Notes under the pieces: model-generated
Databases searched by the model: none
Seen by the model: only the letters and a program-made list of their open reading frames with translations
Told to the model about the DNA's origin: nothing
Position numbers and translations under genes: made by a program
Virus record (IMG/VR): IMGVR_UViG_3300025151_000255
Coordinates: 1-26,298 of that record
Strand: one strand, 5' to 3'
Origin: a virus
Length of the DNA stretch: 26,298 nucleotides
Shown: positions 4,265-18,758 of the stretch, piece by piece
Position numbering within the stretch: the stretch's first letter is position 1
How the letters are laid out: every line of letters starts with the position of its first letter

Positions 4265-5637
4265 TGAGTAAAACAAGAAACCTATCCGATTTATTAGATG
4301 CTAATGGTGATGTCAAATCTGGTGCGTTAGACAACGTACCCGCTAGTGATAATGCTAGTGCATTAACTTCTGGCACTTTGCCAGATGCTAGGTTGTCATC
4401 AAATGTAACACAGAATGGATCAACCCAAACATTAACCAATAAAACTATTAATGCTTCAAATAACACTTTAAGCAATATTCCTAACTCTGCTTTAAGCAAT
4501 TCAGCTATTACCATTAATGGTAGTGCAACTTCTTTGGGCGGTTCTGCAACTATTTCTACAGATTTATCTAATGATAGTACGCCACAGTTAGGTGGGGATT
4601 TAGCTTCTAATGGTAATGACATTCTTATGGCTGATAGCGATAAGATAAAACTTGGTACAGGAAATGACCTAGAGATTTACCATGACGGAAACGACAGTTA
4701 CATGAAAAATGATACCGGTGGTTTGTTTTTACTAGGCAACAATGCTGTTCAAATAAAAGATGAAAGCAATTCAAAATTTATTGCAAAGTTTGTTGAAGAC
4801 GGTGCTTGTGAACTTTATCACAACAATGTTAAGAAATTCGAAACTACCTCTGCGGGTGGTACTCTTACAGGAACTTTAACTGCTACTGCTTTTAGTGGAG
4901 ACGGATCTGCATTGACCAATCTATCTGGCGGTGTTTCTGATGTTGAAATAGTAGTGGTTACTTCTTCTGGAACTTATACTCCGACTTCTGGAACTAAGTT
5001 CGTTACTGTCTATTGTATTGGTGGAGGCGGTGGCGGTGGAAACACCTCTGGTGGTAATAACGAAGCGTCAGTTGGTGGCGGTGGCGGTGCGGGTGGCATG
5101 GCTATTCGTACTTATAATGCTACCGAACTAGGTGCTAATGCTTCTGTTTCTATAGGTTCTGGTGGTTCTGGTGGTGCATCACATTACGACCCAAGAGACG
5201 GCTCTAATGGTAATGGTACTACTTTTGACCCCGCTGGAACAGGCACAACCCTAATAGGATATGGTGGTACCGGCGGATATGGTTCTACTAATCAATATTG
5301 GGGTAGAGGTGGTGTTGGTGGTTCTGCAAGTAATGGACAAATAAATCAGAATGGAATGCCAGCCTATGTAATAAGCAATCATTCAGCTGGATCTTCTTAT
5401 TCAAGGTCAAGTCAAGGTAATACAGCGGGAGTTACCGGTATGATGGGCGGTGATTCAATGTTTACTAGAGGTAGCACAAATACCGCTTATGGCAGTAGTG
5501 GTAATGTAGAGGTAAGTGGTGCTAGTGGTGCTATTGGCTGTGGTGGTCAAGGCGCTATGGCAAGACAAAACTATCAAGCTGGTGGCTCTGGAGGCTCTGG
5601 TGGTTCTGGTTATGTAGTTATTATGGAGTACGCATAA
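4264..5637 (+). CDS. Tail fibre/adhesin protein 2 with glycine-rich tip
   Basis: A 457-residue second fibre. The N-terminal ~110 residues repeat modules seen in fibre 1 ('SGTLPDARL', 'TLTNKTINASNNTLSNI'). Residues about 115-210 contain 'KLGTGNDLEIYHDGNDSYM', a module I recall from many marine phage fibres, then 'AFSGDGSALTNL'. After about residue 225 comes 'GTYTPTSGTKFVTVYCIGGG', followed by a ~200-residue glycine-rich domain with many GGG and GSGG runs ending in 'GSGYVVIMEYA'. The glycine-rich part resembles the polyglycine-loop adhesins of phage receptor-binding tips, where loop sequence sets host range. Role: receptor binding. It is distinct from fibre 1, which ends in a collar domain. Confidence 0.88.
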   Translation: MSKTRNLSDLLDANGDVKSGALDNVPASDNASALTSGTLPDARLSSNVTQNGSTQTLTNKTINASNNTLSNIPNSALSNSAITINGSATSLGGSATISTDLSNDSTPQLGGDLASNGNDILMADSDKIKLGTGNDLEIYHDGNDSYMKNDTGGLFLLGNNAVQIKDESNSKFIAKFVEDGACELYHNNVKKFETTSAGGTLTGTLTATAFSGDGSALTNLSGGVSDVEIVVVTSSGTYTPTSGTKFVTVYCIGGGGGGGNTSGGNNEASVGGGGGAGGMAIRTYNATELGANASVSIGSGGSGGASHYDPRDGSNGNGTTFDPAGTGTTLIGYGGTGGYGSTNQYWGRGGVGGSASNGQINQNGMPAYVISNHSAGSSYSRSSQGNTAGVTGMMGGDSMFTRGSTNTAYGSSGNVEVSGASGAIGCGGQGAMARQNYQAGGSGGSGGSGYVVIMEYA

Positions 5638-12067: not shown

Positions 12068-12302
12068 AGACAAAGTAGAAATAGAGTGGTTTGACGCTTA
12101 CGAGATGAGTGCTGGTTGGCACGATCTTGAAGACGTTCTTAAAGTAAAACTGCCTATTATGAAAAGTCTAGGGTATGTCGTTAAAGAAACAAAAGAGTCT
12201 ATAACTATTTGCGCAGATAAAAACGCAGATCCTAAAGAAAAAGACCGGGGACGTTGTCAGATTATCCCTAAAGGTTGGATTAAGAAAACAAATCTCCTAT
12301 GA
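12057..12302 (+). CDS. Small acidic phage protein, 81 aa
   Basis: I took the ATG at 12057 over a TTG at 12039, because it gives an 11-nt overlap and the natural start 'MPDEDKVEIEWFDAYEMSAG'. The pattern 'VEIEWFDAYEMSAGWHDLED' followed by a C-terminal 'IPKGWIK' is one I recall from small phage proteins of unknown function (W-x-DA...GWHDL...IPKG-x-I). No membrane segment or enzyme motif. Its TGA overlaps the next ATG (ATGA at 12299). Confidence 0.7.
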   Translation: MPDEDKVEIEWFDAYEMSAGWHDLEDVLKVKLPIMKSLGYVVKETKESITICADKNADPKEKDRGRCQIIPKGWIKKTNLL

Positions 12303-12520
12303 TCAAAACATTCTTTTTAGTTGGTTATATCTGTAGTTATGCGATAGCTAACTATGTCGATCCTTTTTGTTTGTCATATTCTGAAGAATACCCCACTTAT
12401 GAAGAGTGCGAAAAAAGAATAACATATTTAGACGAACAAGCTTTAGCTATTAAGTCAGAAAGACTAACTAGCCACAATTTTAAATGTCTGATAACGTATG
12501 AAAAATCAGATACTTTTTAG
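12299..12520 (+). CDS. Small exported protein, 73 aa
   Basis: The N-terminal 'MIKTFFLVGYICSYAIANYV' looks like a signal peptide cut after an Ala. The mature part has three cysteines (in 'DPFCLSYSEEYPTYEECEKR' and 'NFKCLITYE') that could form disulfides in the periplasm. It is the last plus-strand gene of the late block, directly before the convergent minus-strand cassette. Family not recognised. Start from the ATGA overlap. Confidence 0.65.
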   Translation: MIKTFFLVGYICSYAIANYVDPFCLSYSEEYPTYEECEKRITYLDEQALAIKSERLTSHNFKCLITYEKSDTF

Positions 12521-12557
12521 AATTGAAAAATCAAATAAATAAACTATAGGTTTTATT

Positions 12558-12601
12558 GCCGGGTTTTCTCCGTTGTTTGGTTACTTTGGAATTAACCCGG
12601 C
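12558..12601. other. Inverted repeat GCCGGGTT/AACCCGGC enclosing an orphan leader copy
   Basis: GCCGGGTT (12558-12565) pairs perfectly with AACCCGGC (12594-12601) across a 28-nt loop. It lies between two convergent genes (12520 and 12607), where a transcription terminator is expected, but no U-tract follows on either strand, so an intrinsic terminator is doubtful. The loop holds most of a 21-nt repeat (12563-12583) found also at 13722-13742. Confidence 0.5.
12563..12583 (-). repeat. 21-nt direct repeat, copy 1 (orphan leader)
   Basis: Identical over 21 nt to 13722-13742 and nearly identical to 17928-17946. Read on the minus strand it contains TAACCAAACAACGGAGAAAA, an RBS-like leader that precedes an ATG at the other two copies. 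Here no ATG follows, so it is an orphan. With copy 2 it brackets the three-gene minus-strand cassette. Confidence 0.75.
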
Positions 12602-12606
12602 TCTAA

Positions 12607-13161
12607 CTAAGCGACTTCTCTCATAAAACGACGTTTCTTAACACCCCTTCTGGTAAAAGTCTTATCATGGGAATACCCAGCTTCCATAATGTAACTACCA
12701 TTTTCGACATCTTGAATATAAGTAACTAGCTTCTTTATGTTTTTATATAGGTAATTACAGTAAAATTCAGAACACTTTAGAACGAAACTTGGAAAGTTCC
12801 AATTTGTCGTCGCTGTGTATTGAATAGGATAGCCATTATAAATAACAGCTGGGATCAACCGTAGGGTAGGAGCCTCTTCAGAATTTGGTTTACTACCTTG
12901 ATATCTTTTTAATTTCTTATGATCAAAGTCTGGACGGAAACAAACTCTTCTAACCTCAAGAATTAAATTTCTATCCTTACCATTAAACCTTCCGCAAGGC
13001 TCCCCCACAATAACAACCCCTACTAATTTATAACCCGGAGCGTCAGCCCAGATACCATAACAGAATGATATTTGCATTTCTGGGACGGGGTCGTTATGTC
13101 TATGCCAACGAGCAACAAGCTCGTTAGCTAACTTTTTGTTAATTAATTTTATTTCAATCAT
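12607..13161 (-). CDS. GNAT-fold protein, Mom/XF1762-like (candidate DNA-modification or acyltransferase)
   Basis: A 184-residue protein whose order of motifs fits the Mom/XF1762 group of GNAT-like phage proteins: 'VARWHRHNDPVPEMQISFCY' (H20 and H22), 'LVGVVIVGEPCGRF' (residues about 46-59), 'LEVRRVCFRP' (E69, R71, R72), 'KCSEFYCNYL', and 'LVTYIQDVENGSYIMEAGY' (T147-Y148, E153-G155). Mom of phage Mu modifies adenines in DNA and blocks restriction. XF1762-like relatives are less characterised. I infer an acyl- or carbamoylmethyl-type transfer, with DNA modification as the most interesting option; an unrelated GNAT substrate is possible. It is the last gene of a minus-strand cassette and overlaps the 28-aa ORF by 8 nt. 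Confidence 0.65.
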   Translation of the reverse strand: MIEIKLINKKLANELVARWHRHNDPVPEMQISFCYGIWADAPGYKLVGVVIVGEPCGRFNGKDRNLILEVRRVCFRPDFDHKKLKRYQGSKPNSEEAPTLRLIPAVIYNGYPIQYTATTNWNFPSFVLKCSEFYCNYLYKNIKKLVTYIQDVENGSYIMEAGYSHDKTFTRRGVKKRRFMREVA

Positions 13162-13240
13162 CGAACATCATCTTTACAAAATATAAACTAAATCCGATTA
13201 CCCCAATATGAACAAAGGTAGTTAAAGCTATCTCAAACAT
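13154..13240 (-). CDS. 28-aa membrane microprotein
   Basis: Found by following the TAATG at 13242-13238 (minus strand). It starts 'MFEIALTTFVHIGVIGFSLY', continues 'FVKMMFDD' and stops at TGA 13156-13154. Almost the whole peptide is one membrane helix with an acidic C-terminus. Its ATG overlaps the upstream stop, and its own end overlaps the start of the Mom-like gene by 8 nt, so it is framed as a true cistron. A G-rich stretch (GGGGG) lies 6-10 nt before the ATG. Function unknown. Confidence 0.6.
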   Translation of the reverse strand: MFEIALTTFVHIGVIGFSLYFVKMMFDD

Positions 13241-13719
13241 TAAAAACCCCCGTTTCGTATCGTGCTAGGGTGTCCGTCTTCAAAAGCTTCCAGCGCATAA
13301 TCTCGACTAGATACTTCGCTATCTAAATATTCTTCACGACTTATAAAATCTAAATAAAGATAATAGCCTTTATCTATTTCATGCGGATAATAAAACAGTT
13401 CCAATATCCGTTCTGCATGATAAGCCCACCAAAAAGAAAACCCGGTATTAAACTTTTGCGGGTAACTAGATGATGCGTGATCCACATAATCATATTCAGT
13501 TCGCATTACATAAATCGGAAATGAAAAAAATGAATATTTAAAAAAAGTTTTAATATAAGAAATAATAAAACTCATACGATTTAAATTTCTTGAAAGAAAT
13601 CTAGGGAATTTGTAAGTGTTAAAATAACTAAACTTAAAAATTCTAAAACCACATAGCCAAGAATGACTGACTTCACTAGGTAGTATAAATATATTTAGGT
13701 ACTTGCCGTATATTTTCAT
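13240..13719 (-). CDS. Hypothetical aromatic-rich protein, 159 aa
   Basis: I do not recognise a family. The protein is very rich in Phe, Tyr and Ser. The N-terminal half holds 'YIKTFFKYSFFSFPIYVMRT', which could dip into a membrane but is not a clean TM. The C-terminal half is polar, with 'FWWAYHAERILELFYYPHEI' and an acidic tail. It is first in the minus-strand cassette and is preceded by the conserved leader (13722-13742), which provides GGAGA four to five bases before the ATG. Composition differs from its neighbours, suggesting an accessory gene. Confidence 0.6.
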   Translation of the reverse strand: MKIYGKYLNIFILPSEVSHSWLCGFRIFKFSYFNTYKFPRFLSRNLNRMSFIISYIKTFFKYSFFSFPIYVMRTEYDYVDHASSSYPQKFNTGFSFWWAYHAERILELFYYPHEIDKGYYLYLDFISREEYLDSEVSSRDYALEAFEDGHPSTIRNGGF

Positions 13720-13721
13720 TT

Positions 13722-13742
13722 GTTTTCTCCGTTGTTTGGTTA
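13722..13742 (-). repeat. 21-nt direct repeat, copy 2 (leader/RBS of the 13719 gene)
   Basis: Perfect match to 12563-12583. On the minus strand it reads TAACCAAACAACGGAGAAAA and ends just before the ATG at 13719, supplying the Shine-Dalgarno GGAGA. It acts as the 5' leader of the cassette. Confidence 0.78.
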
Positions 13743-13996
13743 TGATTTAATGTATCAAATTTTCACAAAAAGTAACACTTTTTTTTGACACAAAAGTACA
13801 CAAACAGTAAGAAAAAACGTTGTTTATTAGGGCTTACACATTATTACCAAGACTGTGAAACCCTTGATTTTTGGGAAAAGTAGCGATTATTGTGCCTTTT
13901 TATGACACATAACGTTTCATTATTTCTCATTATTTCTCAATAACTTTTTATAACTGTTACGCTATGTGTAATAAAAATTGACACACTTTTGACACA
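13743..13996. promoter_or_regulatory. Noncoding region with repeated TGACACA words; candidate attP arm or operator region
   Basis: No ORF is evident in about 250 bp. Four plus-strand TGACACA copies lie at 13786, 13903, 13979 and 13990, the last two exactly 11 bp apart (one helical turn). A perfect 10-nt tandem repeat TCATTATTTC lies at 13917-13936. GTTACGCTAT (13956-13965), followed by GTGTAAT, resembles the operator-like sites beside the repressor gene. The region precedes the 13719 gene on the minus strand and lies close to the tRNA and integrase. Integrase arm sites, repressor operators and a minus-strand promoter are all possible; no clean -35/-10 pair stood out. Confidence 0.45.
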
Positions 13997-14164
13997 CTAA
14001 AGAGTTCTTCTAATGTGATTTGGGAAACGACCTTCTTCTTTGAAGGTCATGTAAGCGGAGTACCAATCTTCCTTGTATTCGTTCTGACAAAAATCTTTCA
14101 GAGCTTTGTCTGTAGTAGGTTCCATACAAAAAAGATTTTTTAAAGTTTCAAAAATCTGACCCAT
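13997..14164 (-). CDS. 55-aa hypothetical protein between tRNA-Thr and the attP-like region
   Basis: The minus-strand ATG at 14164 is preceded by a strong Shine-Dalgarno (AGAAAGGAATTTATC-ATG). The product begins 'MGQIFETLKNLFCMEPTTDK', then 'ALKDFCQNEYKEDWYSAYMT' and ends 'FKEEGRFPNHIRRTL'. It has two cysteines, is acidic to neutral with a basic end and has no TM. 'W-x-x-A-x-M-TF-x-x-EGRFP-x-H-IRR' looks like a folded helical protein. Family not recognised. An integration-related or small regulatory role is suggested only by location. Confidence 0.62.
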   Translation of the reverse strand: MGQIFETLKNLFCMEPTTDKALKDFCQNEYKEDWYSAYMTFKEEGRFPNHIRRTL

Positions 14165-14241
14165 GATAAATTCCTTTCTTAGAAAAGTATAACAAACAGA
14201 TCTTTAAATTTTCGTATGTTAGTTTAACAGAGGAGCTATGC

Positions 14242-14316
14242 TGGTGCTGACGAGAAGAATTGAACTTCCGACTTCTATCTTACCAAGATAGCACTCTACC
14301 ACTGAGTTACGCCAGC
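14242..14316 (-). tRNA. tRNA-Thr (anticodon GGT), complete with encoded CCA
   Basis: Read on the minus strand, GCTGGCG pairs with CGTCAGC (one G-U), followed by ACCA. The D-arm is ACTC-AGTGGTA-GAGT. The anticodon arm CTATC-TTGGTAA-GATAG gives anticodon GGT (Thr, reading ACC/ACU). The T-arm is GGAAG-TTCAATT-CTTCT (one G-U). All cloverleaf parts and the TTCAA T-loop are intact. Its first base follows the integrase TGA directly. It may be a functional phage tRNA that shares the integrase transcript, or part of the attachment site; being complete, it is not a typical 3'-end attP fragment. Confidence 0.93.
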
Positions 14317-15255
14317 TCATAAATTTTTAATTACTGAAGCTTTTCTTGTATCAACAACTTTAGCATAACGCAAAGCCATTTTCTCAGAACTCCAGCCACC
14401 TAAACTCATCAAAGTTTTTATATCAGAGTTTTTTAAAACTCTTGTCGCAAACGTATGACGAAACTTATGAGGATTAGATTTTATCCCGGATAACGTTTCC
14501 ATTTTTCTCCAAGAACTTTTTATTCCATGACGAGAGCTATAGACAAACACTTTCCCTTTACCTTGGTGTTTCCCTAGTTGCTTTTTTAGTTTTGGATTTA
14601 TGTAAATGTATTTATATTTTTTTGTTTTTGTCATAAAGACAGAGATCAGATTTTCTTCATAATCAATATCTTTCCAATCAAGAGCTATAGCTTCAGAGAT
14701 ACGACACCCGGTATAATATAAAAAAGATATTAGAGTTTTTATCTTACCCGCATTCTTTAAAAGTAATTCAAATTCCTTTTCATTGTGCCAAGAGATCTTA
14801 GTCTCTTCTACCGGAAACTTATTTAACTTAATCGGTTGTGAACCGAGCTTCGCCATTTGTAAATTAATTAACGCTTGAACTAAATTAACAATCTTATTAA
14901 CAGAACTATTTTTTAACCCGGGAGACAAACTAGACTTTATATGATCAGAGAAAGTTGGCTTTATAGAGTCTATGAAAGTATGTCCGTATTTCTTAGTAAC
15001 CTTCCGGAGCTGGGTTATAACGTTAATATGCAGATGTTTTATATCAATATAGTCTTCTAAAGACTCTTCCAGAGTTGGCTGGTGTTTCTTTTTACCAGCC
15101 AACTTTTCATAATATAGATTTTCTATTCTTTTTAAGACGACTTCAGCTTCTTTTTTACCTTTGCAACTTGTGGATTGTCGAATGCGTTGTCCGCCAATGG
15201 TTGTTCCTTCGATTTGCCAGAAGGGACTTCTCGGACGTTTTTTGAGTTTAAGCAT
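14317..15255 (-). CDS. int: Tyrosine integrase (site-specific recombinase)
   Basis: A 312-residue recombinase that integrates and, with an excisionase, excises the phage. The N-terminus (1-55, 'KRPRSPFWQIEGTTIGGQRI') is the arm-binding type. Residues about 60-140 are the core-binding SAM-like domain. The catalytic domain shows R185 ('YYTGCRISEA'), K210, H263-x-x-R266 ('HKFRHTFAT'), W288 at the second-His position ('LGGWS') and nucleophile Y297 ('LRYAKV'). All key residues are present. The start at 15255 lies 124 nt inside the upstream HTH gene and has no clear Shine-Dalgarno. The N-terminal domain needs this start. The stop abuts the tRNA. Confidence 0.95.
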   Translation of the reverse strand: MLKLKKRPRSPFWQIEGTTIGGQRIRQSTSCKGKKEAEVVLKRIENLYYEKLAGKKKHQPTLEESLEDYIDIKHLHINVITQLRKVTKKYGHTFIDSIKPTFSDHIKSSLSPGLKNSSVNKIVNLVQALINLQMAKLGSQPIKLNKFPVEETKISWHNEKEFELLLKNAGKIKTLISFLYYTGCRISEAIALDWKDIDYEENLISVFMTKTKKYKYIYINPKLKKQLGKHQGKGKVFVYSSRHGIKSSWRKMETLSGIKSNPHKFRHTFATRVLKNSDIKTLMSLGGWSSEKMALRYAKVVDTRKASVIKNL

Positions 15256-15428
15256 TCTATAATCTTGTCTATATGACCTTGTGAAAATCTCAAGCGAAAA
15301 GGTACTCGAACATAGAACTCCTCTTGTGGATATTCCTCTTTTAAGTCGTTTAATATTGAATAAACGGTCTTTTTAGAGACTCCAAAGATACTAGCAACGT
15401 CGGTTATGGTATGTAATACGTTAGACAT
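15132..15428 (-). CDS. Excisionase-like / MerR-type HTH protein, 98 aa
   Basis: The N-terminal half is a helix-turn-helix: 'ITDVASIFGVSKKTVYSILN' (residues about 8-27), then a beta-like 'YVRVPFRLRFSQGHIDKIIE'. This is the layout of excisionase/AlpA-type or MerR-like DNA-binding proteins. The C-terminal ~45 residues are basic and polar and are encoded over the integrase start. Its place directly before int supports a recombination-directionality role, but general DNA-binding regulation is equally compatible. The ATG overlaps the previous stop (TAATG at 15430-15426). Confidence 0.72.
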   Translation of the reverse strand: MSNVLHTITDVASIFGVSKKTVYSILNDLKEEYPQEEFYVRVPFRLRFSQGHIDKIIECLNSKNVREVPSGKSKEQPLADNAFDNPQVAKVKKKLKSS

Positions 15429-15781
15429 TAATACAATTTACCCCCCGATACTGCTAATTTGTTTAAGGAGAACTGAGCCATAAGCTTATATTCAATAGCT
15501 TTCATATCTATCGACAAGCTGTTTGCTTCTTCTTTGGCTTTCTTGGTTTCCTGTGTAGCTTTCTGGTATTCTTCAGAAGCTAAGGCTTGTATCTCGGATT
15601 GAGATACATTATGACCACCACCAATCAAATCTTTCTTTTTTTCGTTAAAGATAATTTTCATGGATTGTTCTTTAAACCAAGCTTCAGCATTCTTAGTGGC
15701 GTGTTTTTGACCAACTTCATGATATTTAAAAATCATCTTATCAATGTCGTTGCCAAGTGTTAGTAGTTCTTGTCTATTCAT
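15428..15781 (-). CDS. Hypothetical helical protein, 117 aa
   Basis: No family recognised. The protein is predominantly helical, with 'EALASEEYQK'-like heptads and 'AKEEANSLSIDMKAIEYKLM' (about residues 80-100) suggesting a coiled coil. It is Lys/Glu-rich and has no TM or cysteine. It belongs to the minus-strand lysogeny/recombination transcript, overlapping the upstream gene by 8 nt and coupled to the next by TAATG. Its role could be nucleic-acid-related from context only. Confidence 0.62.
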   Translation of the reverse strand: MNRQELLTLGNDIDKMIFKYHEVGQKHATKNAEAWFKEQSMKIIFNEKKKDLIGGGHNVSQSEIQALASEEYQKATQETKKAKEEANSLSIDMKAIEYKLMAQFSLNKLAVSGGKLY

Positions 15782-15983
15782 TTTTCAACCTATAAACCCC
15801 ATAACGAGATCCTGTTATTGGGTGTACCTTCCTTATCGTTTCTATGGATATGTTTTTATTTCTCAAATCATTGATGCGAGCTGATAGACGATAACTACCA
15901 AACTCTTCCCAAGATTTAATCGGATCGAGAACTTTACCGGATTTTAAATATTCTAAAATCCTTTGGTTTTGCGATTTACTCAT
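15774..15983 (-). CDS. Winged-helix DNA-binding protein (HTH_39 type), 69 aa
   Basis: The protein fits the small wHTH family PF14090: 'NQRILEYLKSGKVLDPIKSW', then 'FGSYRLSARINDLRNKNISI' (the recognition-helix region) and a C-terminal beta wing, 'GSRYGVYRL'. The conserved GS-x-RL-x-ARI-x-DLR pattern is clear. It probably acts as a small regulator or DNA-binding accessory in the early minus-strand operon. It overlaps both neighbours by 8 nt. Confidence 0.82.
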   Translation of the reverse strand: MSKSQNQRILEYLKSGKVLDPIKSWEEFGSYRLSARINDLRNKNISIETIRKVHPITGSRYGVYRLKNE

Positions 15984-16296
15984 CTCTGATACCCAGCCTA
16001 TCTAAAGTTTTTTGATACAGCTCCTTCGCAACCTCAAAAGGATCTCTGAAACAACAATTCTCCCAGAACCAATCCTCAGATCTATTGGGTTGGTGTAAAA
16101 GAGTATGACAGTCATGACATAGAGGAACTGTAAATTCGTCTGATACTCTAGAGCCTAAAGACTTAAAATGACCCGGCTCTTTCTTACGCACATGATGCGC
16201 TTGAACTCCTTGATCACTTCCACAAGCCATGCAAGGTTGAGTTCTTACAAAGCCTAAATGAACTGCGGATCTATATTTCTTAGCTCCAATCTTCAT
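15976..16296 (-). CDS. HNH/DUF968-like zinc protein (putative nuclease), 106 aa
   Basis: The core is 'CMACGSDQGVQAHHVRKKEP' (C22, C25, H34, H35), then D53, 'VPLCHDCHTLLHQP' (C60, C63, H64, H68). That is a zinc-bound HNH-like fold as in DUF968 proteins, which occur among phage recombination genes. It probably binds or cuts DNA. I chose ATG 16296, which gives a 17-nt overlap with the upstream gene, in line with the short overlaps around it. The ATGs at 16347 and 16341 follow a GGGGGA and would overlap by more than 60 nt, but cannot be excluded. Confidence 0.75.
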   Translation of the reverse strand: MKIGAKKYRSAVHLGFVRTQPCMACGSDQGVQAHHVRKKEPGHFKSLGSRVSDEFTVPLCHDCHTLLHQPNRSEDWFWENCCFRDPFEVAKELYQKTLDRLGIRDE

Positions 16297-16726
16297 TTGG
16301 TTGATCGTGAATAATTTGTCCGTCTCGAGTATATTCAGCATTTTCATTCCCCCTTTCTGGATAATTTTGGCTTATGTTTGGAACCGTATTAGAAAGTCTA
16401 GTTGGTTCGTTGTTGTTATAATTACCACGGTTATAATTCTGATTATTGTTGTTGTAATTATTATTGTATTCCTTCTTTTCTATTTTTGGTGGTTGAGGAT
16501 TAGCTTGGAAATAACTTGTTAAGTTACCTTTAAGCTTTTCGTCTGCAATAGACAGCATGAACCTTTGACCGGGTTGTAGCTGAACATTGTTGTTAAAACT
16601 TCCAGATAAAAATAATCCATACTTACCCTCTCTGTGCCAGACACCCCCGGCATCAAAAGACTTTCCGTTTTGGTCAGTAATTTTTATTCTGAAATGTGGT
16701 CTAAGACCCTTATCGTTATTTTGCAT
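16280..16726 (-). CDS. Hypothetical beta-rich protein with Asn-rich linker (ssDNA-binding-like?), 148 aa
   Basis: Residues 1-75 look like a small beta domain: 'HFRIKITDQNGKSFDAGGVW', 'KYGLFLSGSFNNNVQLQPGQ' and 'RFMLSIADE'. Residues about 85-115 are an Asn/Tyr low-complexity linker ('NNNYNNNNQNYNRGNYNNNE'), followed by an acidic end, '-DQPNEDWS'. A globular domain, a disordered linker and an acidic tip is how single-strand-binding proteins are built, and the recombination context fits. The fold itself I cannot confirm, so SSB is a guess. Confidence 0.6.
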   Translation of the reverse strand: MQNNDKGLRPHFRIKITDQNGKSFDAGGVWHREGKYGLFLSGSFNNNVQLQPGQRFMLSIADEKLKGNLTSYFQANPQPPKIEKKEYNNNYNNNNQNYNRGNYNNNEPTRLSNTVPNISQNYPERGNENAEYTRDGQIIHDQPNEDWS

Positions 16727-16729
16727 TTT

Positions 16730-16870
16730 TTATTTTTTCCTTTTTTTATTTATGTTTCTGTTTTTCTTTGCCAATCTTTTCATTTGAGCGACTGACGTAA
16801 CTTTCTTTCTGGCGTTTTTTTTACGAATGCTATTTCGTATTTTCACGACTTCTTTACCGACGTCTGCCAT
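16730..16870 (-). CDS. 46-aa basic microprotein
   Basis: Found from the TAATG at 16872-16868 (minus). It reads 'MADVGKEVVKIRNSIRKKNA', 'RKKVTSVAQMKRLAKKNRNI' and 'NKKRKK', then TAA. It is extremely basic and helical, with no TM. It fills the gap between the nuclease gene and the 16726 gene exactly (3 nt remain). A nucleic-acid-binding role is suggested by charge only. Confidence 0.62.
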   Translation of the reverse strand: MADVGKEVVKIRNSIRKKNARKKVTSVAQMKRLAKKNRNINKKRKK

Positions 16871-17757
16871 TAAGAACTCTTCGCTTTCTCTTTATTGAAT
16901 TGATTACAAAGTCCCGATTTACCGACATCACAATAGAGTCCACATCTCATAGATGTTCCATTTCGATACCAGCGAGTTTCTTCAGAACAAATAGGCTCCG
17001 TAGCGTCCGGCTCGTTTTGACCTAGTGCCATTAATTGATGTTCTGAGACTTTTTCCGATAGATGTTTTTCAATCACATCTTTAGGAAGTAAAGGTAGAGG
17101 CTCTTCAAAAAATTCACTTTTCGGATAATTATTTATCTCAAGTGATTTACGATGAGTCCAATGCCTACAATAAATCAGCAAGGAGAGATCATGGACGTTA
17201 TATCCACCTTGCTCAAACGCATAACGATAAGCCTGTAGTTGCCAAAAGTATTTATGTTTGGGTAGCTTACCTTTGCTTTTAAATACTCTGATCTCACGGA
17301 GAACAGTCTCCATTTGAAAAGCTGAAGTAGATTTCCAATCTCGAATGATAATGTCTTTATTCGTAAATTTATCATTATCAAATCCAAGATATTGAATTAG
17401 GTCAGCACGACCAGAGATAGTCCAATTTCCATATCCTCCCTTGACCTTAAAGAAAGTAGGAACTTCTCGTTCAAACTTCCCCCGGGGAAAATACTTTAAA
17501 AAGAACTGTTCAAAAGATTGACCAATTACAATCGGAATTAAATCCGTTGTTTTCTTTTCAATCTCAACTTCTCTTAGTTTGTTTTTTTTATAAACAAGCG
17601 GAGCGTCTTCTAACAGATCTGATAGGTTCATATCAGAAGTTATTGTCTGAGTTTTCTTCCTGTTAAGATACTCTTCGTTTTGTTCACGCTGAACAGATTT
17701 AATTAAATAATTAATTATATCTGATTGGTTAGGATCGTCTAATAAACGAGTCTTCAT
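16870..17757 (-). CDS. PD-(D/E)XK nuclease, Cas4/RecB-like, with C-terminal Cys cluster
   Basis: A 295-residue nuclease of the RecB/Cas4 kind. It shows 'IGQSFEQFF' (about 78-86), the active-site D119 in 'ISGRADLIQYL', D140-W-K142 in 'IIIRDWKST', and the QxxxY-type motif 'FWQLQAYRYAF' (Q173, Y177). Near the C-terminus four cysteines (C257, C272, C276, C284) are spaced like an iron-sulfur or zinc site, as in Cas4/AddB-type nucleases. Such phage enzymes usually act as 5'-3' exonucleases for recombination. There is no cas1/cas2 and no CRISPR array in the window. The start is ATGA with the 56-aa ORF. Confidence 0.87.
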   Translation of the reverse strand: MKTRLLDDPNQSDIINYLIKSVQREQNEEYLNRKKTQTITSDMNLSDLLEDAPLVYKKNKLREVEIEKKTTDLIPIVIGQSFEQFFLKYFPRGKFEREVPTFFKVKGGYGNWTISGRADLIQYLGFDNDKFTNKDIIIRDWKSTSAFQMETVLREIRVFKSKGKLPKHKYFWQLQAYRYAFEQGGYNVHDLSLLIYCRHWTHRKSLEINNYPKSEFFEEPLPLLPKDVIEKHLSEKVSEHQLMALGQNEPDATEPICSEETRWYRNGTSMRCGLYCDVGKSGLCNQFNKEKAKSS

Positions 17758-17924
17758 TGTAGATCCTTCTTATCTAAGAAATCACGCTCAACCTCAGCAA
17801 GCGTCCTGTCATCTTTCAAGACAGCAATTAACAGGGATTTTATCTCTCTTAGAAGTTTGGTTTGTTTAGATAGCTCCTCAAAAATATTATTATCTTTGAG
17901 AAGCTCATTGACATTTACAGCCAT
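17754..17924 (-). CDS. 56-aa hypothetical protein, first gene of the minus-strand recombination operon
   Basis: The minus-strand ATG at 17924 follows the conserved leader (17928-17946) with Shine-Dalgarno GGAG. The product starts 'MAVNVNELLKDNNIFEELSK', continues 'QTKLLREIKSLLIAVLKDDR' and ends 'TLAEVERDFLDKKDLQ'. It is helical and charged, with possible heptads at 18-36. The C-terminal 'TLAEVERDFLDK' resembles the first helices of an HTH but is too short to call. Its TGA overlaps the nuclease ATG. Confidence 0.65.
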   Translation of the reverse strand: MAVNVNELLKDNNIFEELSKQTKLLREIKSLLIAVLKDDRTLAEVERDFLDKKDLQ

Positions 17925-17927
17925 AAC

Positions 17928-17947
17928 TTTCTCCGTTATTTGGTTAC
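17928..17947 (-). repeat. Leader repeat copy 3 (one mismatch)
   Basis: It matches the leader at 13722-13742 over about 19 nt with one change (ATAACGGAG for ACAACGGAG on the minus strand). It provides the RBS for the ATG at 17924. It shares a GTAACC start on the minus strand with nearby operator-like words. Confidence 0.7.
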
Positions 17948-17970
17948 TTGTTAAAAGCTTTACTGATTAA

Positions 17971-17990
17971 GTAACAGATTGCAACACTAT
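17971..17990. promoter_or_regulatory. Operator-like site with GTAACAG and GCAACACTAT
   Basis: It consists of GTAACAGATT followed by GCAACACTAT, the same two half-words as at 18031-18050 but in the opposite order. It lies between the repressor gene and the 17924 operon, so it may be a repressor site controlling that operon. Assignment is by pattern only. Confidence 0.4.
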
Positions 17991-18030
17991 TTTCCCAAAA
18001 AAAACATTTTTTTGCGAAAAGAAACAGTTG

Positions 18031-18045
18031 GTTACACTATGTAAC
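18031..18045. promoter_or_regulatory. Operator-like inverted repeat GTTACACTATGTAAC
   Basis: GTTAC and GTAAC form an inverted repeat with a 5-nt spacer, lying six bases from the stop of the repressor gene and upstream (minus strand) of the 17924 operon. GTTACACTAT recurs at 18787-18796 upstream of the repressor start, and GTTACGCTAT at 13956-13965. Confidence 0.55.
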
Positions 18046-18050
18046 AGTAA

Positions 18051-18758
18051 TTAAATTTTCTTTTGATTATAAACTTGATCGTGAAGTGAATTAACTCTTG
18101 TTGATTTGAAAGTTCTGGGAGCAAATAGTGCCTCGATAACATACAGATTATAAACGTTTTTTTTATCTATATTTATTTTTGTTTTTGTAGCCTCATCAAT
18201 GCAGATAACTTGTTTTTTACTTGGAACATATTTTGCATTACAAAAAACAAATACTTCATCTTTATAATGAGATACGGGTGTTTCTTTTTGAGGCTTATAG
18301 TTTAGTAAGCAATAAACATATTGATTAGCAATACTGTCTATTTTTTTAGCGAAGTCATTTGTAGGGTCAAATAAACATTGATAATCATAGATAGGGTCAT
18401 GTTTGACTAAAATACAATGATATCCTCGCCAAATATTTGATCGTAACATATCCGTTGGATCAGACAATCTAGGGCGGTTGACTACCCCATGATCGCAAGT
18501 AATACCAACTACAGGAACTTTAGTAGTGGAGTCAAATTTTCTATTTCCAAGGCTTTTAGTTGAAGAATGATAAATGTCCACATTGAAATATCTTAGTAAT
18601 TTATTTAAAGACTCTACCGATATGTCGCTTTGAGTATGAATAAATTTTGATACTACCGAAGGTGATAAGCCAACCTTTTTACAGATTTGGTTCCATGACT
18701 TTCTAGAGTCATGCTGTTTTGCAACCAAAACTTCAATTAATTTCTTCTTGCCGTTCAT
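18051..18758 (-). CDS. CI/LexA-type phage repressor, apparently without the S24 catalytic residues
   Basis: A 235-residue protein. Residues about 21-46 are an XRE-type HTH ('SWNQICKKVGLSPSVVSKFI'), followed by helices to about 60. The C-terminal region begins 'VPVVGITCDHGVV' (81-93), like the start of S24 repressor domains. At the place where the catalytic 'GDSM-P' should stand there is 'CILVKHDPIYDY' (115-126), with no Ser-Met. I see no convincing catalytic Lys either. Such a protein could bind DNA and dimerise but not self-cleave, so induction would need another route. It starts after AGGGGAGAAA-ATG, divergent from the replication genes, with operator-like words on both sides. It is likely autoregulated. 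Confidence 0.78.
   Translation of the reverse strand: MNGKKKLIEVLVAKQHDSRKSWNQICKKVGLSPSVVSKFIHTQSDISVESLNKLLRYFNVDIYHSSTKSLGNRKFDSTTKVPVVGITCDHGVVNRPRLSDPTDMLRSNIWRGYHCILVKHDPIYDYQCLFDPTNDFAKKIDSIANQYVYCLLNYKPQKETPVSHYKDEVFVFCNAKYVPSKKQVICIDEATKTKINIDKKNVYNLYVIEALFAPRTFKSTRVNSLHDQVYNQKKI

Follow-up and report, generated by a model that had tools for sequence, protein, structure and literature searches.

We identify a short repeat of an uncultured marine phage, a seemingly stray copy of a ribosome-binding leader at the far end of the exchangeable cargo genes, as a probable antisense RNA gene that would control the RBS of both the early and the cargo operons, a reading to which we assign a probability of roughly 0.74 on the basis of sequence comparison. 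The stray (orphan) copy matches the leaders of its own genome, lies within a conserved hairpin at a conserved place, and changes in step with those leaders from one phage type to the next, and the stem of the hairpin carries compensatory changes.

Genomic Context and Relatives

The window, by which we mean the whole stretch of DNA analyzed here (26,298 bases), is the entire IMG/VR record IMGVR_UViG_3300025151_000255, possibly a genome fragment, and encodes an integrase adjoining a tRNA-Thr gene, an HTH repressor, a terminase, a portal, and a lysozyme (coordinates of the features discussed are given in table 1). By terminase, the nearest isolates are Pelagibacter phages (approximately 48% identity), and the repressor, exonuclease, and integrase are without a close relative among known phage isolates. 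An orphan-type hairpin is absent from HTVC010P and HTVC035P, the latter having a single low-complexity 14-nt match. Relatives were collected by a pattern scan combined with protein searches (L004, L006, L008–L011, L028–L037, L059, and others), and gene order is conserved across them: repressor, early operon, integrase, a 55-aa ORF, cargo, and convergent late genes, with the 55-aa ORF between integrase and cargo undetected in L059.

Twenty hits, of unspecified length, came from a control scan of reversed sequences; on the real sequences, repeats of at least 17 nt comprised the leader/orphan repeat family and one repeat in L016, which we read as an ordinary repeated leader, whereas L005 has the motif once, probably by chance. 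Retrieval of 80 loci with a conserved 83-aa late protein yielded no further lineages, and a search of genome contigs for an integrated relative found none. The integrase reading frame is broken by a frameshift in L036 (L036:5952–6882) and by an internal stop in L034 (L034:7678–8607). The motifs repeated in the conserved non-coding stretch upstream of the window's cargo operon are perhaps integrase arm sites.

Table 1. Features of the Late, Cargo, and Early Regions of the Window.
Feature	Position	Strand	Remarks
Last late-operon gene, 73 aa	12299–12520	+	Stop 37 nt before the hairpin start
Promoter-like site	12523–12550	+	TTGAAA (12523–12528)-N16-TATAGG (12545–12550); ends 7 nt before the stem
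Proposed antisense RNA hairpin	12558–12601	+	8-bp GC stem GCCGGGTT/AACCCGGC; holds the complement of the shared leader
Repeat copy 1 (orphan)	12563–12583	-	Leader sequence in sense; no downstream start codon
Cargo gene 3, Mom-like protein, 184 aa	12607–13161	-	PHROG 1384, E = 8.5e-13
Cargo gene 2, 28-aa hydrophobic peptide	13154–13240	-	Occupies the slot in four of the six leader types
Cargo gene 1, aromatic-rich protein, 159 aa	13240–13719	-	No named family
Repeat copy 2	13722–13742	-	RBS leader of the cargo operon; start codon 13719
Conserved 250-bp non-coding stretch	13742–13997		Precedes the cargo operon; TGTGTCA and AGAAATA motifs recur in it
tRNA-Thr gene, complete	14242–14316		Directly after the integrase; likely attachment site
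Early operon fronted by copy 3	14317–17924	-	56-aa ORF, exonuclease, SSB-like, HNH, small ORFs, integrase
Repeat copy 3	17927–17946	-	Two mismatches over 20 nt; early-operon RBS leader; start codon 17924
Palindrome GTTACACTATGTAAC	18031–18045		Between the repressor gene and the early operon

A Leader Repeat Shared by the Early and Cargo Operons

The repeat (GTTTTCTCCGTTGTTTGGTTA on the plus strand) occurs in two exact 21-nt copies in direct orientation, as the first-pass annotation of this DNA had reported, and that annotation was equally right that three minus-strand genes lie between them, that copy 2 is the RBS leader of the first cargo gene, and that copy 1 is an orphan with no start codon after it. 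It had overlooked both a third copy, which fronts the early operon (exonuclease to integrase) approximately 4 kb away, and the hairpin around copy 1, and these two omissions alter what the repeat means. Three matches to the 20-mer with at most three mismatches were observed against 0.02 expected from dinucleotide shuffles. A further copy stands before ssb, inside the early operon, in L031–L034, and L036 has a third leader copy at 5060; in the window, the SSB-like name is provisional, being drawn only from the position of the gene and a low-complexity tail. Promoters of single leaders mostly scored no better than chance, and for this reason we claim only weakly that the repeat stands at the 5′ end of the mRNA.

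The Orphan Copy Lies in a Conserved Hairpin

The hairpin that encloses copy 1 (GCCGGGTTTTCTCCGTTGTTTGGTTACTTTGGAATTAACCCGGC on the plus strand) is found in all relatives that have this stretch, always at the convergent end of the cargo and late genes, 5–14 nt beyond the last cargo stop and, where the end is resolved, approximately 20–70 nt beyond the last late-strand gene. Its outer stem is Watson–Crick paired in 49 of 49 cells, with seven distinct stems all perfectly paired and changes on both sides at six of the seven positions, as expected of compensatory change; these pairs were counted by script from hand-set arms, MAFFT having given no stem alignment across lineages. No clear terminator-like site was found on either strand near 12600, and the hairpin has no T run on either side. 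In an Rfam search of positions 12300–18100, the tRNA alone reached the gathering score, everything else remaining below threshold, and the hairpin corresponds to no known Rfam RNA.

Orphan and Leaders Change in Step

Six leader types occur among the IMG/VR relatives, and the layout (early leader, cargo leader, orphan in hairpin) is constant while the sequence differs: the leader reads AGTAACCAAACAACGGAGAAA in the window type, TTAGCAAAACAACGGAGAAA in L028 and L029, AACAACACACAAAAGGAGA in L030–L035 and L037, AACCAAAACATGGAGG in L036, TAACAAACACAAAGGAGGC in L059, and ATCAACCATAAG(G)ACACGAA in L010. The early and cargo leaders of any one genome match one another, and so does the orphan in its GC-stemmed hairpin; the loosest match is that of L010, where the cargo leader differs at several positions. 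The leaders of the window and L028 types differ by changes at two positions, the same two in all three places. Taken together, the leader copies elsewhere in the genome, the invariable placement of the orphan in a stem-loop, and the in-step change of orphan and leaders indicate a regulatory element.

Some leaders have further structure around them. The early copy of L010, instead of overlapping the RBS, lies approximately 60 nt upstream and precedes a second hairpin (L010:4519–4602), a placement that suggests a different use, such as attenuation. The early leader of L036 is able to form its own hairpin (TAGTCTCCTTCAT...ATGGAGGTGACTA; L036:2911–2953) that would mask the RBS, and L031–L034 have a comparable inverted repeat ahead of the early gene.

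Which Strand Acts

The differences between leaders and orphans suggest that the plus strand acts. In the core (leaving off the two terminal positions at either end), 8 of 11 differences are compatible with G–U pairing to a plus-strand RNA (leader T with orphan C, or leader G with orphan A, leaving a G–U pair), three are transversions, and none is a pairing-breaking transition, against 0 of 18 compatible differences at the edges (p = 4e-5 by Fisher's test, rising to 3e-4 when events that are probably shared are counted once), on small numbers, with core limits of our own choosing and counts that ignore kinship. A promoter-like site precedes the stem on the same strand, and counterparts stand 6–7 nt before the stem in L028 (TTGAAA-N16-TATAGA), L029 (TTGTAA-N16-TATAGA), and L036 (TTGAAA-N16-TATACG), the site being kept in L028 and L029 though the spacer differs. 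The best promoter score falls within the top 0.5% of control positions in the window and L028 and at approximately 10% in L036; in the L032, L059, and L010 types it is not significant against control positions.

In all seven lineages folded, the plus-strand hairpin is predicted to be more stable than the minus-strand one; counting against a plus-strand reading, the minus-strand inner pairing gains some G–U pairs in L030, L032, and L036. Over the 121-nt stretch around the hairpin, the plus strand folds better than most shuffles (z = -1.7) and the minus strand better than 200 of 200. This last result favors a reading in which a phage translational repressor protein binds the leader in the early, ssb, and cargo mRNAs and the minus-strand orphan hairpin is a titration site or decoy, as does the sharing of one RBS sequence by several genes, one of them operon-internal. 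Such a protein would, however, give no reason to expect the wobble bias or a promoter-like site on the plus strand, a decoy has no need of a position at the end of the late operon, and no candidate protein was found; we consider this reading quite unlikely.

Predicted Targets and Proposed Mechanism

When the candidate antisense RNA was slid along each genome and its partners ranked, no site other than the RNA's own locus outranked the early and cargo leaders in the window, L028, and L029. Together with the ssb or third leader, these two take the highest ranks in L032, L033, L034, and L036; they hold the first two ranks in L060, and in L059 the first rank goes to the early leader and the third to the cargo leader. 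Predicted duplex energies are mostly -25 to -41 kcal/mol for cognate pairs and mostly -8 to -20 kcal/mol for unrelated types, with similar types between, although both ranking and energies partly restate sequence identity. The RNA would thereby have the extended complementarity to the RBS region of phage mRNA that characterizes trans-acting antisense RNAs.

We hypothesize that the hairpin encodes a small antisense RNA, read in the plus-strand (late) direction. The transcript would begin near the base of the stem from its own promoter-like site, with a possible addition from late-operon read-through. The RNA would fold into the GC-stemmed hairpin and present a loop complementary to the 5′ leader and Shine–Dalgarno sequence of the early and cargo operons; pairing of the loop with the mRNA leader would extend to a duplex of approximately 20 bp and block ribosome binding, and the early/integration and cargo genes would be silenced together. 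We infer transcription, the acting strand, RBS occlusion, and the 3′ end of the RNA from sequence features, and our confidence in any life-cycle role is lower than in RBS control itself.

Two such roles can be envisaged. The RNA may confer lysogen immunity while keeping the cargo quiet: because the repressor gene shares its orientation with the early operon, transcription running on from it could activate the integration genes in a lysogen, and a block at the RNA level would stop this from happening. Alternatively, it may shut off the early genes once the late strand is transcribed. A more elaborate version, in which one RNA is both the antitoxin to the cargo operon that encodes the 28-aa peptide and the immunity RNA that silences the early operon, is rather unlikely; on that version, loss of the prophage, and of this RNA with it, would release the peptide, and matched leader/loop types would define heteroimmunity groups whose changes are not tied to those of the protein repressor.

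Likeness to Known Antisense Systems

Antisense RNA control of lysogeny is known from a few enteric phages, and we consider a novel variant of phage antisense RNA control the most likely description of this locus. The c4 RNA of P1 and P7 is a small phage RNA with a looped complementary segment that pairs around the RBS of a phage mRNA, and differences in its sequence set heteroimmunity (PMC12197685); the candidate RNA resembles it in being a small phage RNA with a loop-borne complement and proposed RBS pairing. Whereas c4 acts on antirepressor mRNA, the proposed targets here are the early/integration and cargo operons, and whereas c4 lies upstream of the antirepressor operon in the same transcript, the candidate RNA is on the opposite strand, where cargo and late genes converge. 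The 68/69-nt sar RNA of P22 is likewise a phage antisense RNA that blocks translation initiation (PMC12197685), but has one target (ant), whereas the candidate RNA would be common to two to four leaders.

In layout, the locus recalls the type I toxin–antitoxin system par(pAD1) (Fst/RNA II), in which convergent transcripts carry opposite-direction repeats, through which the antisense RNA masks the RBS on its mRNA target (PMC7472228); the phage has complementary repeats (copies 1 and 2) in convergent late and cargo genes, one of them at an RBS, and its cargo often includes a membrane peptide of approximately 30 aa, a further point of resemblance. The P/D/S/TXXXG membrane-helix motif of Fst (PMC7472228) is absent from the 28-aa peptide (MFEIALTTFVHIGVIGFSLYFVKMMFDD). 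Unlike in par(pAD1), the peptide gene usually does not stand first and two leader types lack it, no shared bidirectional intrinsic terminator was found in the phage, and the phage RNA would also target early genes. In IS10, RNA-OUT is a single stable hairpin that pairs, through its loop, with the RBS and 5′ end of the target mRNA, RNA-IN; that antisense RNA overlaps its target in cis, whereas the candidate phage RNA is a separate inverted duplicate that would act in trans.

By this comparison, the closest mechanisms are those of c4 and sar and the closest layout is that of par(pAD1), and we claim likeness, not membership, because the locus lacks defining features of c4 and par that we tested. 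If correct, this reading would extend antisense RNA control across a whole family of uncultured marine temperate phages, one RNA governing both the early genes and the exchangeable cargo, with targets and specificity groups predictable from sequence alone. It would also mean that a seemingly useless repeat beside cargo can be a regulator, one that can be searched for as an RBS leader duplicated within a hairpin.

Leader Type Is Independent of Repressor Type

The copies adjoin the likely starts of two operons, which would suit a DNA operator or stoperator, that is, a site for the phage repressor at two promoters with an extra site ending the cargo operon; dispersed repressor sites are known in some phages (L5 stoperators). 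However, L034 (repressor at 69% to that of the window) and L031–L033 (41%) have one leader type, and L004 (67.5%) has that of the window. A separate palindrome that looks like the operator (GTTACACTATGTAAC) lies upstream of the early operon, in a stretch that differs where the repressor differs. With leader type independent of repressor type and this palindrome present, the leader probably does not serve the repressor as its operator; such a site would also account for neither the compensatory stem changes nor the copy before ssb, and we regard the operator reading as very unlikely.

The Cargo Slot

The first-pass annotation described a modular cargo slot, and the genes found between the two copies do differ from relative to relative. 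L006 encodes a 227-aa protein (its first gene, unlike that of the window), a 28-aa peptide, a 98-aa protein, and a Mom-like protein; L028 encodes a 32-aa peptide alone and L029 an aromatic protein and a peptide, and L030, L032, L033, L036, L059, and L010 have other cargo gene sets. The earlier naming of the window's third gene as Mom-like agrees with its PHROG match, while its Pfam Mom match (E = 0.0018) is below the curated cut-off. The cargo proteins had no matches to defence families and almost none to Pfam or PHROG.

The same annotation had taken the repeats to serve recombination of the cassette, and looked to relatives for its replacement, or its absence with a single repeat copy. Replacement between the copies is seen and absence is not, every resolved slot in these few genomes having both copies and at least one cargo gene; relatives without an orphan copy, named there as the evidence that would tell against the proposal, did not appear either, the orphan being present in every resolved relative. 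That the repeat is a recombination linker, its short identical flanks letting cargo swap by homologous or Red-like recombination with the orphan as a by-product, accords with varied cargo between retained flanks but is highly improbable, since it leaves unaccounted for the lack of an empty slot, the hairpin around every orphan, its fixed place, the change of the orphan together with the leaders, and the early-operon and ssb copies. Beside its proposed regulatory role, the 21-bp identity could help cassette exchange as well.

Two kinds of cargo product recur. A hydrophobic peptide of 28–32 aa is found in the window (13154–13240), L006 (L006:868–954), L028 (L028:11534–11632), and L036 (L036:8471–8557), and is sometimes the sole cargo gene. 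The C-terminal motif of the aromatic protein (SREEYLDSEVSSRDYALEAFEDGHPSTI), which belongs to no named family, is also present in many unrelated virus contigs (L012–L027).
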